A program made the translations under genes and the position numbers. A stretch of DNA of 62,349 bases from Candidatus Saccharimonadota bacterium. GTDB lineage: Bacteria > Patescibacteriota > Saccharimonadia > Saccharimonadales > Saccharimonadaceae. The stretch's first letter is position 1. The number at the start of each line of letters is the position of its first letter. This document shows positions 7,133-62,349 of the stretch, piece after piece. The stretch lies in assembly GCA_017432225.1 (NCBI GenBank), contig JAFRJN010000013.1, positions 1 to 62,349 on the forward strand, written 5' to 3'. The notes beneath the pieces were generated by a model. The model was not told the DNA's origin. It was given only the letters and a program-made list of their open reading frames with translations, and ran no database searches.

Positions 7133-7210
7133 TGGTGGGCGATAGAGGAGTTGAACCTCTGACCTCGTCTACGTCAAAGACGCGCTCTAGCCAACTGAGC
7201 TAACCGCCCA
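7133..7210 (-). tRNA. tRNA-Val (GAC)
   Basis: A 78-nt cloverleaf with encoded CCA. The acceptor TGGGCGG pairs with the segment before CCA, the D arm is AGCTCAGTTGGCTAGAGC, the anticodon loop TTGACGT gives anticodon GAC, and the T arm has GGTTCAACTCC. It is the last full tRNA of the minus-strand cluster. Confidence 0.93.
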
Positions 7211-7214
7211 TAGT

Positions 7215-7291
7215 TGGTGAGCCGGGAGGGGCTCGAACCCTCGACACCGGGCTTAAAAGGCCCGTGCTCTAACCAGCTGAGCTACCGGCCC
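7215..7291 (-). tRNA. tRNA-Lys (TTT)
   Basis: A 77-nt cloverleaf with encoded CCA. The acceptor is GGGCCGG, the D arm AGCTCAGCTGGTTAGAGC, the anticodon stem-loop CGGGC-CTTTTAA-GCCCG with anticodon TTT, and the T arm GAGGGTTCGAGCCCCTC. It is four bases from tRNA-Val. Confidence 0.95.
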
Positions 7292-7298
7292 ACTTTCG

Positions 7299-7374
7299 TG
7301 GTGGTTCCGGCTGGACTTGAACCAGCGACACAAGGCTCTTCAGGCCTCTGCTCTACCAACTGAGCTACAGAACC
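7299..7374 (-). tRNA. tRNA-Phe (GAA)
   Basis: A 76-nt cloverleaf with encoded CCA. The acceptor is GGTTCTG, the D arm AGCTCAGTTGGTAGAGC, the anticodon loop CTGAAGA gives GAA, and the T arm is GCTGGTTCAAGTCCAGC. It is the first gene of the cluster; a minus-strand TATAAT (7383-7388) lies just upstream. Confidence 0.95.
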
Positions 7375-58857: not shown

Positions 58858-61203
58858 ATGAAAATTTCTCTAAATTGGATCAAAAAATATGTAAAAATCC
58901 CAGTCTCGGATGAAGAGCTGATTCGGCTAATTGGGGCGCGACTGGTGGAGGTCGAGGGGGTAATTGACGAATCGCATAAATATGATAATATATATGTAGT
59001 TAAAGTGGTGAGCGCCGAAAAGATACCTGACACACACTTGACGCTCTGTCAAATAAATGTTGGTGCTGATGAGCTGGTCCAGGTAGTCTGCGGGGCGCCC
59101 AATGTGCGTGAAGGGATGCTGGCAGCCTGGATAGCGCCAGGGGCGGTAGTGCCGGCTTCGGTGCATGAGGACCAGCCATTTGTAATTGGTAAGCGTAAAA
59201 TGCTGAATAAGTATGACTCTAATGGTATGCTCGCCGGAGCGGATGAACTGGACTTTGGCGATGACCACAGTGGCATCGTCGAGATTGACCCAGAGATGGC
59301 GGAGCCGGGTGACCTGCTCAAGGATGTGTTTGAGCTGGATGATAAAATCTTGGAGATTGAAAATAAGTCGCTCACTCACCGGCCGGACACCTTTGGGATT
59401 ATCGGATTTTCGCGCGAGGTGGCGGGGATACTGGGTGAGAGCTTTGACTACGAATACCAGGATACGACTCTGAAGCCGGGCAAAGAGCTCTCAGTGAAAA
59501 TCGCAGATGCGGATATTTGTGGCAGATATACGGCGATAGTACTAGAGAAACACGGTGAGATAGACAAGAAATATCTTTCGATGGTGGATGTACTGCTTTC
59601 AAAATCGGGGATGAAGCCGATTTCGCCGATTGTAGACGTGACGAATTATCTGATGCTACTTACTGGCCAACCACTGCACGCCTTTGACTATGATAAATTT
59701 GTAAAGGTGGGCAAGAGCGCTAAACCAGAGATTACGGTGAGGCTAGCGAAAAAAGGCGAGAAACTGGAGCTTCTGGACGACACAAAGGTGGATCTGATCG
59801 AGAGCGACATTGTGATTTGCTCTGGTGATACACCGGTGGCGCTAGCTGGGGCGATGGGTGGCAAGTCGACTATGATAGACGAGAATACGCGAAGCATCAT
59901 CATCGAGTCGGCGACTTTCTCACTCTATAATCTACGCAAGACACAGATGGCGCACGGGATTTTTTCCGAGGCGATTACACGGTTTACCAAGGGACAGCCG
60001 TCGTATCAATGCCTGAAGGTAGCGGAAGCGGCAGCAGAGATGCTGGCAGGTGGTTACAGAGTGGCGCTAGTGGCGGATACGGAGAAAAAATCCGAGAAAC
60101 CGATTAGTGTAGAAGTAAATATAGACGAAATTAATGGGCTGCTCGGCACAGATTATAGCGAAAAAGAGATTGTCAAGACTCTCGAAAATGTCGGTTTTGA
60201 AATTGAAGGCAAAAATGGAAATTTGAAGGTTAAATCCCCACTTTGGCGGACAGATATCCATATCAAAGAAGACGTCATCGAAGAAGTGGGGCGGCTCAAT
60301 GGCTATGATAATATCGCGCCAGTCTTGCCGCTACATCAGACGGCGGAGAAGAACGCAAGTCTCTCTCTTAAGGCTCGGATACGCGATATTCTATCTAGTT
60401 TCGGTGCAAACGAAGTCCTCACCTATAGTTTTGTTAGTGCGCATCTAGTTGAAAAAGCGGGGTTAGACCCGAAGGAATCTTACAGGATTGTCAATTCGAT
60501 TTCGCCAGAGCTTCAGCTGATCCGTCAGGCGATTGTGCCGAGCCTTTTGGACAAGGCTTATGTTAATCAAAAGCTCCCAGTAGATAAATTTGCGATTTTT
60601 GAGATGAATAAGGTGTATCAGAAGTCGCTGGGGCTAGATAGCGAGGGGGTGCCAGTAGAAAAGATGCACCTTGCGCTCGTGATAGCGGAGCGGAAGAATG
60701 CCGGTACGGCTTACTACCAGGCGAAATACTACCTAGAGAGATTGCTCGAGGCTCTGAATATCGAGGTATCTTTCGAAGGAAAGTTAGACACTTGTCCAGT
60801 TTCGCGTCCGTTCGAGAAAAAGCGTTCGGCCAGCGTGATAGTAAATGGTGAAACTATCGGCGTAGTGGGTGAATTTAAAAATTCCGTGAGGAGAGCCTTT
60901 AAGCTGGGAGATTATCTGGCGGGATTTGAGCTTGATTTTGATAAGCTAATTGAATATGCACGTCCGACTCGCGAAATAGACACTTCATTAGTTGTAGACA
61001 AAAGAGACCTTACGGTAGAGACAGACAAGACTTACCGTGAAGTGATAGAAAAAGTGGAAGAAATCTTGGCGAAGCATGAAGTAAAGGCCGAAATCACTCC
61101 GCTTGCAATCTACCAGCCAGAGACGATTAAGCATATCTCGATTCATCTAGAGTTCAAAGAAAAAATCGATGACACGCTGATGCAAGAACTTGAGAAAATC
61201 TAG
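58858..61203 (+). CDS. pheT: Phenylalanyl-tRNA synthetase beta subunit
   Basis: tRNA-binding and editing subunit (781 residues). An EMAP-like tRNA-binding domain (about 40-150), B3/B4 editing domain (PDTFGIIGFSREVAGILG near 178), B5 and core, and the C-terminal FDX-ACB anticodon domain ending in HISIHLEFKEKIDDTL. GGAG lies 8 bases before the ATG, 12 bases after pheS. No clear terminator follows. Confidence 0.95.
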   Translation: MKISLNWIKKYVKIPVSDEELIRLIGARLVEVEGVIDESHKYDNIYVVKVVSAEKIPDTHLTLCQINVGADELVQVVCGAPNVREGMLAAWIAPGAVVPASVHEDQPFVIGKRKMLNKYDSNGMLAGADELDFGDDHSGIVEIDPEMAEPGDLLKDVFELDDKILEIENKSLTHRPDTFGIIGFSREVAGILGESFDYEYQDTTLKPGKELSVKIADADICGRYTAIVLEKHGEIDKKYLSMVDVLLSKSGMKPISPIVDVTNYLMLLTGQPLHAFDYDKFVKVGKSAKPEITVRLAKKGEKLELLDDTKVDLIESDIVICSGDTPVALAGAMGGKSTMIDENTRSIIIESATFSLYNLRKTQMAHGIFSEAITRFTKGQPSYQCLKVAEAAAEMLAGGYRVALVADTEKKSEKPISVEVNIDEINGLLGTDYSEKEIVKTLENVGFEIEGKNGNLKVKSPLWRTDIHIKEDVIEEVGRLNGYDNIAPVLPLHQTAEKNASLSLKARIRDILSSFGANEVLTYSFVSAHLVEKAGLDPKESYRIVNSISPELQLIRQAIVPSLLDKAYVNQKLPVDKFAIFEMNKVYQKSLGLDSEGVPVEKMHLALVIAERKNAGTAYYQAKYYLERLLEALNIEVSFEGKLDTCPVSRPFEKKRSASVIVNGETIGVVGEFKNSVRRAFKLGDYLAGFELDFDKLIEYARPTREIDTSLVVDKRDLTVETDKTYREVIEKVEEILAKHEVKAEITPLAIYQPETIKHISIHLEFKEKIDDTLMQELEKI

Positions 61204-61240: not shown

Positions 61241-61270
61241 TTGCATTTATTTTTAAAAGTATGCTATAAT
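61241..61270 (+). promoter_or_regulatory. Promoter of the structured leader
   Basis: TTGCAT (61241-61246), 18-base spacer ending TATGC, TATAAT (61265-61270). The expected start near 61277 coincides with the first base of the closing helix of the leader. Confidence 0.7.
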
Positions 61271-61276
61271 GAGAGT

Positions 61277-61608
61277 GCAACAGTTATACAGTTTTATTAA
61301 AAAGGAGGTACGGTTTAAGCTGAAAAGAACTTTTTCGAGCTTGTTTATGGCACCGTGAGGAGTCTAAAGTTTGAAAAAGTTAACCTCTTAATCGAATTGT
61401 ATGACTGTTGCACCTCGCGGTGTCGTTTTCTTATAAGGGTTAGAGAACGCACCGGACTTATAAAAATAAATGAAAGGTCCAAATGTCTAAGGTCATACAA
61501 AAAATCAATTTCGAACTACACCGTGGTCGGGGAGATAAGTCTTCTGACCCTTATTCATACAGAACTAACTTCCTCACGAAGCTAAGAGGTCTTCGTGCAC
61601 GGTGTAGT
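61277..61608 (+). ncRNA. Large structured leader with alternative pairings
   Basis: Domain 1: 61277-61290 pairs 61398-61411 (14 bp), then AGGAGGT (61303-61309) with ACCTCTT (61383-61389), and ACGGT (61310-61314) with ACCGT (61352-61356). Then hairpins at 61412-61421 (CACC/GGTG) and 61424-61449 (8 bp). The loop ATAAGGGT (61433-61440) matches ACCCTTAT (61547-61554), a pseudoknot. Domain 2: ACTACACCGTG (61515-61525) with CACGGTGTAGT (61598-61608) enclosing CACGAAG/CTTCGTG (61575-61597). Competing pairs: TTGTATGAC (61397-61405) with GTCATACAA (61492-61500), and AACTTTTTC (61328-61336) with GAAAAAGTT (61373-61381). No known family recognised. Confidence 0.6.
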
Positions 61609-62349
61609 AGTACATCAAAAGTGAATTCCATTTCAAGATTTGATAATAACATTAGATTTAATAGTCATGCTCGTCTAATTGGTGCGTCTTCCGCTATTTT
61701 GCTTTTGTCGCTTCTGACCCTTACTGTTCTTCCAGTTGTCCATAATGATGATTCTGCTGATGCTGCTACCGGTACCGCCACACAGTCTAGTACCACCGTT
61801 TCAGTTAGTACCGCCACCGCCAGTGTAGATCTCACGGCCACCAGTACGGACGGGACCTTTGCTACTTCTACTGGCTCTGGCATCGCATCCTTTGACGTCA
61901 CCACGACTAACTATACAGGCTACACTCTCACCATTGAAGCAGATGATGATGACGGCACCCTTACTAATGGTTCTGGCGGAACATTCACTTCCATTTCTTC
62001 CGTGATGGACGAAAAGACCTTTGATGATTCTACTTATAATGGCAAATGGGGCTACAAGCCAAGCAAAATGAATGGTGTAGAAAACGTCGGCTTCTGGCCA
62101 TCACCTACTACTACTGCTACTACTCTTGATACTACTAAAGTAGCTAACACCACAGCTAATACTTATACTATCGCCCTCGGTGCCAGAGCCTCTGCCTCCC
62201 AAGCTGCAGGAACTTATAGCAAGACTGTCACTATCACTGCTACATCCAACCCAGCGAACTATTCTATTACCTACAAAGACGACACCAGCGATAGCACGGT
62301 AAAGAATATCCCGGATGCCACCACTTCTACTACTTCTGGGACGTCCATC
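61483..62349 (+). CDS. Secreted Thr/Ser-rich surface protein (partial, runs off the window)
   Basis: The frame is open to the window edge (289 codons). From ATG 61483 (AAAGG 6 bases upstream) there is a 65-residue polar N-terminus, then a membrane/signal segment SSAILLLSLLTLTVLPVV, then a Thr/Ser-rich beta domain: FDVTTTNYTGYTLTIEADDD, KWGYKPS and ASQAAGTYSKTVTITATSNP, the same pattern as the 48377 protein. Codons 12-42 coincide with a strong RNA helix (61515-61608), so an in-frame GTG at 61621, just after that helix, is an alternative start giving a more ordinary signal peptide, though without a good Shine-Dalgarno site. Confidence 0.78.
   Translation, partial: MSKVIQKINFELHRGRGDKSSDPYSYRTNFLTKLRGLRARCSSTSKVNSISRFDNNIRFNSHARLIGASSAILLLSLLTLTVLPVVHNDDSADAATGTATQSSTTVSVSTATASVDLTATSTDGTFATSTGSGIASFDVTTTNYTGYTLTIEADDDDGTLTNGSGGTFTSISSVMDEKTFDDSTYNGKWGYKPSKMNGVENVGFWPSPTTTATTLDTTKVANTTANTYTIALGARASASQAAGTYSKTVTITATSNPANYSITYKDDTSDSTVKNIPDATTSTTSGTSI

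Follow-up and report, generated by a model that had tools for sequence, protein, structure and literature searches.

A previously uncatalogued multi-copy family of structured leader RNAs in Candidatus Saccharibacteria

A leader near the end of the window, the whole 62,349-nucleotide stretch of DNA analysed here, belongs to a multi-copy family of structured RNAs from Candidatus Saccharibacteria. The family is previously uncatalogued. Its predicted structure, composed of the helices P1 and P3 and a pairing between two strands, A and B, is firmly supported by covariation. With slightly more confidence than doubt, we read the leader as a cis-acting transcription attenuator, in which the A-B pairing would be the antiterminator and a hairpin formed by B itself the terminator. 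Gene regulation in Saccharibacteria is almost unexplored, and about one leader per 20 kb, as in one relative, is extreme for a cis-acting RNA. If the leader switches, it opens a way to study surface choice in these host-attached bacteria. A strand that has three possible partners and is present in more than 100 replicates with different stems represents a clean system for co-transcriptional RNA folding.

Position and anatomy of the leader

The window ends where its contig ends, in a 0.62-Mb genome of 18 contigs (G000). The 3' end of the 23S rRNA gene and a 5S rRNA gene lie at the window start (1-592), three tRNAs are encoded on the minus strand at 7136-7374, and the leader is located between an upstream pheT-like gene (58858-61203) and a gene with its ATG at 61483. 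All features of the leader are on the plus strand. P1 begins 4 nt past an extended -10 promoter element, TGC-TATAAT (TGCTATAAT, 61262-61270), and thus starts at about +1; it comprises 20 bp, G-U pairs included, between its 5' arm (GTGCAACAGTTATACAGTTT, 61275-61294) and its 3' arm (61394-61413). The 14-bp helix of the original prediction at the presumed transcription start was therefore found, in a longer version. P3 was recovered by folding and by covariation (61328-61342 with 61367-61381). Its apical loop is strand A (ATGGCACCGTGAGG, 61347-61360), which pairs over 14 bp and with a duplex energy of -25.5 kcal/mol with strand B (CCTCGCGGTGTCGT, 61413-61426), located directly behind P1; a loop-loop match of only 8 bases had been noticed before. 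Since A-B is a pseudoknot, a minimum-energy fold cannot show it.

Two other partners of B are visible in the window copy. Pairing of B on itself (61410-61414 with 61419-61423) yields a terminator-like hairpin T, GCACC-TCGC-GGTGT at 61410-61423, which shares bases with the foot of P1 and with strand B and is weak in this copy, with -5.9 kcal/mol and only four U in the U-tract (61426-61429). Strand C (GAGAACGCACCG, 61443-61454) complements B together with its U-tract, and the B-C duplex (-17.4 kcal/mol) is present in the computed fold of the window leader. The likely ribosome-binding sequence of the downstream gene is GAAAGG at 61472-61477; the gene itself, a putative surface-protein gene, is open at the contig end (61483-62349, 289 amino acids seen). 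The 344-nt stretch singled out originally folds with -111.8 kcal/mol, compared to -76.0 +/- 5.8 kcal/mol in 100 shuffles (z -6.17), none of which was as low, and the segment 61275-61430 likewise folds far better than shuffles (z -6.2).

The frame from 61483 is conserved, as paralogues align with in-frame indels only and with third-position changes in excess. Because the sequence from 61483 onward is coding, the element ends near 61454. The 11-bp helix proposed to close a second leader domain (61515-61525 with 61598-61608) exists, but it lies inside this frame and not in the leader; with 61483-61620 being coding, the second domain drops out and the leader up to about 61454 stands. A buried ribosome-binding sequence (AAGGAGGT, 61302-61309) is not conserved in the homologous leaders and is peculiar to the window copy among those aligned. 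Mutually exclusive helices had also been foreseen. They were found in sequence for B, which can pair with A, itself or C, whereas the 9-bp match of the P1 3' arm (TTGTATGAC) to the first codons (GTCATACAA) is not shared by the family, staying at chance level over 87 leaders (mean z 0.20, p 0.45).

In 27 % of leader-linked genes, compared to 2 % of shuffles, the initial 200 coding nucleotides contain perfect inverted repeats whose arms measure at least 10 bp. They were seen at window positions 61515-61608 and also behind leaders L042, L020, L021, L130, L149 and L144. Several unrelated arm sequences recur among paralogues; they may reflect RNA structure, a recombination site or a protein constraint.

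Members of the family and covariation

A DNA search revealed partial copies in the window's genome and genus. All of them combine a -10 box with a long P1, with P3 and with an A complementary to B, and their stems differ in sequence. A pattern made from A and B matched 13 saccharibacterial stretches among 84,980 genomes, including Candidatus Saccharibacteria from ruminant gut (among them G007, G052, G060 and G088, all of the window's genus), plus two unrelated chance matches; those in Demequina and Latescibacterota lacked the arrangement of promoter, P1 and U-tract and were rejected. Twelve of the 13 stretches, some of them loci already seen, passed a scan for P1 plus pseudoknot, and L036 was caught by the covariance model only. 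This model, R1, was built from 11 aligned leaders and matched 64 of 147 sampled genomes of the window's genus, the sample consisting of species representatives, many of them incomplete. In a full scan of two genomes, 8 matches on the gene strand were obtained in the window's genome and 39 in a 0.8-Mb relative. At least nine copies are present in the window's genome, with L003 (contig C13 near 39040, E 1.9e-5) missing from the scan's eight. Strict filters in the searches lead to an undercount of copies. Contigs often end inside leader-linked genes (C7, C13, C14, C15 and C16 of the window's genome, and many in G100, G094 and G023), a hint that assemblies break at this repetitive surface-gene family and that its size is under-counted. 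A phage origin found no support in exact-pattern scans of viral contigs, a narrow test.

The 11 leaders were aligned with MAFFT without knowledge of the structure, hence the alignment does not lean towards it. In P1, P1b, P3 and A-B, 95.6 % of the cells were paired, compared to 34-47 % in slid controls. Changes on both sides were present in 29 of the 50 pairs (12 of 17 in P1, 11 of 13 in P3), and none of 500 shuffles was as good; these counts, like those below, refer to sequences and not to events, the leaders being mutually related. Thus the arms vary with compensatory changes, as expected for the regulatory RNA of unknown class that had been proposed. Rfam 15 gave no family at the gathering score, and a search of the leader at E<=10 returned only miRNA and proV noise. 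No description of the leader was found in open-access full texts on Saccharibacteria, Patescibacteria or CPR.

In the family, P1 has a length of 15-25 bp and A-B of 12-18 bp. In 158 of 170 leaders, the distance from the end of a -10-like hexamer to the model start is 4 or 5 nt; given this fixed spacing, P1 starts no more than a few bases from where transcription is expected to begin. A paired better in cis than with the B strands of the genome's remaining leaders (p 1e-7; +8.6 in the window's genome). This better fit of A to its own B where B differs between a genome's leaders indicates that the A-B pairing acts in cis. Identity between copies of one genome was 0.41-0.61 for the P1 arm and 0.67-1.00 for B in the multi-copy form of the window's genus (first form); in several genomes B is nearly identical between copies (0.97-1.00). 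No conserved unpaired pocket or motif was seen among the aligned leaders of the multi-copy form.

Near-identical gene starts can carry wholly different leader stems, observed for L042, L016 and L020 in G049 and for L002 and L003 in the window's genome. This mismatch of stem and gene looks like the outcome of an exchange of leaders, or of leaders diversifying more rapidly than genes. Some P1 arms (GTCTAAC/GTTAGAC) recall an integron attC site, an identity that we rejected by judgement, as the arms vary freely and start at the promoter's +1.

Alternative partners of strand B

Of the 165 scored leaders, 155 have a standard pair (A-U, G-C or G-U) at the closing position of hairpin T, formed by the nucleotides immediately 5' of CACC and 3' of GGTG. 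The closing pair is G-C in 109 of 121 leaders of the first form and A-U in 36 of 49 of a second form from other genera. This switch separates two clades, so the signal is partly phylogenetic, and within the alignment of the second form T had no covariation of its own. The U-tract follows the hairpin by 1 or 2 bases; among 116 first-form leaders, 104 have a tract of precisely five U. Its positions are T in 96-99 %, whereas their partner positions in A pair in 75-97 % only; this conservation beyond the pairing with A argues that the U-tract is kept for its own sake. In L003 and L020, which have an unusual B, the self-hairpin is absent and A-B is kept. Duplex energies range from -21 to -31 kcal/mol for A-B and from -6 to -9 kcal/mol for T. 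At equilibrium A-B is thus favoured, and a regulated choice would be kinetic or need a factor.

Strand C matches B in most leaders and is usually found within about 70 nt downstream. B-C complementarity exceeded that to shuffled downstream sequence (mean z 3.7; p<=0.025 in 66 % of the leaders), compared to z 0.4 in a control at +300. C is a near-exact repeat of A in several leaders, e.g., in L012 (TGGCACCGCAAGGGG vs CCCCTTGCGGTGCCA). In many leaders, including several of the window's genome, C is weak or broken, and often it ends 20-40 nt before the Shine-Dalgarno sequence (SD), leaving the SD uncovered.

Proposed mechanism and competing explanations

The features of an attenuator are present in the sequence: an upstream promoter, a hairpin with a U-tract and a conserved pairing that excludes the hairpin. 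A-B, conserved by covariation, and T share the bases GGTGY and are hence mutually exclusive. Transcription would start at about 61275, so that P1 closes the extreme 5' end of the message, and P3 would display strand A in its apical loop. Newly made B would then face two exclusive choices, A or itself. Paired with A, it would form a pseudoknot stacked beside a fully zipped P1, B would be kept from the hairpin and RNA polymerase would pass. Folded on itself, GCACC-N4-GGTGY followed by U5 would act as an intrinsic terminator and open the base of P1 too. Read-through would expose C, which could compete with A for B and whose role may be to reset the leader or to adjust translation or decay; located beyond the U-tract, C cannot act on termination there. 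A terminator function of the B hairpin with U5 is strongly suggested by the sequence, while for A-B as antiterminator and for the role of C we infer the function. A protein, an RNA polymerase cofactor or folding kinetics is a likelier trigger than a small metabolite, given that the multi-copy form has hypervariable stems and that no conserved unpaired pocket was seen in it.

A constitutive 5'-end cap, in which P1 at +1 and the pseudoknot shield the mRNA from 5'-end-dependent decay without any switching, has a limited but real chance of being the correct explanation. It accords with the start of P1 at about +1 in nearly all leaders, with stems that are free in sequence and strict in pairing, and with the diversity of downstream genes in other genera. 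However, a cap leaves unexplained the self-folding of B, a U5 kept beyond its pairing with A and the existence of C. C would be accounted for by a translational or post-transcriptional switch, with B bound to A in a free leader or to C in a hairpin before the ribosome-binding site, altering translation or processing. The position of C between B and the start codon and the B-C complementarity above shuffles speak for such a switch, which we nevertheless regard as unlikely: C is weak or broken in many leaders and often stops short of the SD, and U5 again finds no explanation.

Several observations count against the attenuator reading: the weak T with four U in the window copy, the partly phylogenetic signal of T, the loss of the self-hairpin in L003 and L020 with A-B kept, and the position of C beyond the U-tract. 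In addition, A-B ends right at the U-tract, and it could itself be the terminator stem, relieved by opening P3 or P1. The 12-18 bp with a GC-rich middle run without gap into the U-tract, and the upstream side is A-rich. Still, strands separated by another helix are unusual for an intrinsic terminator and the conserved self-hairpin of B would be superfluous, which makes this explanation quite improbable. A stand-alone trans-acting small RNA ending at the U-tract, with the genes behind as mere neighbours, would suit the compact unit of 120-180 nt from +1 to the U-tract and a B that, being nearly identical between the copies of several genomes, permits pairing between leaders, yet it is hardly credible in view of the cis-matched A-B, the same-strand genes close behind nearly all copies and the strong enrichment of surface genes.

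For the attenuator, a speculative extension concerns the terminated leaders. With B near-identical over up to about 39 copies and stems that are all different, pairing between leaders is possible, and terminated leaders could pair via B with C or A of other surface-gene messages and form a network. We consider this unlikely; if true, leader RNAs would set which surface proteins co-occur or exclude each other.

Downstream genes

Same-strand genes follow at about 15-100 nt in nearly all copies. In the window's genus, they appear to code mostly for secreted surface proteins: behind an N-terminal segment lie a hydrophobic stretch, read as a membrane or signal segment, and a long, apparently secreted remainder. 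Several of these proteins contained Fib_succ_major domains and Listeria-Bacteroides repeats according to Pfam, which gave no match for the window protein as cut off by the contig end. In the relative G056, 28 of the 37 Fib_succ_major genes have a same-strand leader within 2.6 kb upstream, where 0.06 per gene were expected, and four of the nine genes without leader adjoin a contig end. One RNA architecture thus fronts most surface-domain genes of a genome. This agrees with the surface-protein control suggested originally, the regulation itself being deduced from the alternative pairings. The downstream genes of other genera are mixed and include a T4SS pilin, DUF4352, small membrane proteins and a methylase-like gene. 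A shared metabolite theme was not found among the downstream genes of the genus or of other genera.

Comparison with known leader RNAs

The preQ1-I and fluoride riboswitches are pseudoknot riboswitches with terminator expression platforms. Like them, the saccharibacterial leader has a 5'-leader pseudoknot, from a loop to a 3' strand, that shares bases with an intrinsic-terminator-like hairpin. Its pseudoknot of 12-18 bp differs from theirs of a few bp, as do the hypervariable stems, the missing conserved unpaired pocket (in the multi-copy form) and the P1 fixed at +1; a metabolic gene theme and an Rfam match are absent. EAR and put antitermination RNAs carry conserved sequence motifs by which they act on RNA polymerase. 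They are structured leaders of roughly similar size that promote read-through before surface or export genes, as proposed here, but the visible logic of the saccharibacterial leader is exclusive pairing with an internal hairpin-U5, and Rfam similarity to them is missing. T-box leaders make a terminator/antiterminator choice in the 5' leader, the choice also proposed for the saccharibacterial leader. A T-box identity was rejected, since Rfam, which includes the T-box, returned no match; aminoacyl-tRNA or amino-acid genes are not found downstream, and pheT lies upstream. Comparative-genomics surveys list candidate structured RNAs (e.g., PMC11109978, PMC8632094, PMC7266159), and these candidates resemble our leader as uncharacterised structured leader RNAs found by comparative genomics.

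A second form in other genera

Outside the window's genus, genomes of the same taxonomic family usually have one copy, mostly shorter (about 118-150 nt). The typical B of this second form is GACACC-TTGC-GGTGTC-G-TTTTTT, and the typical A is CGGCACCGCATAAGCA. A-B was 100 % paired in 29 leaders, 12 of which have G-C or U-A in place of C-G and 10 of which have G-C in place of A-U; P1 covaried in 7 of 8 pairs. RNAalifold, unprompted, picked A-B as the consensus fold. R2, a covariance model of the second form, matched 86 of 343 genomes sampled from the class, several other families included. Elsewhere in the phylum its matches were weak and rare, and three weak ones in the phylum sample were treated as chance; within the limits of the models, the element thus looks confined to the class. 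Two motifs are conserved in the second form, ATAAGCA behind A and G[TC]GAATGG in the inner loop of P1. These motifs could bind something, or they could bend P1 so that the loop reaches B.

For a strand A* upstream of A that would sequester it, the other genera gave support (mean z 1.56, p 3.5e-7); in the leader type of the window it is absent (mean z -0.13). In type-2 leaders, e.g., L202, L208 and L209, a short B-like strand (TTGCGG) upstream of A can pair locally with A, which exceeds chance in the single-copy form only. One leader copy, L210 near 203-540 in G071, lies about 200 nt before a gene resembling that of ribosomal protein S12. Behind it comes a long stretch that is almost perfectly complementary to B and the P1 3' arm, and the whole could fold as one long hairpin.
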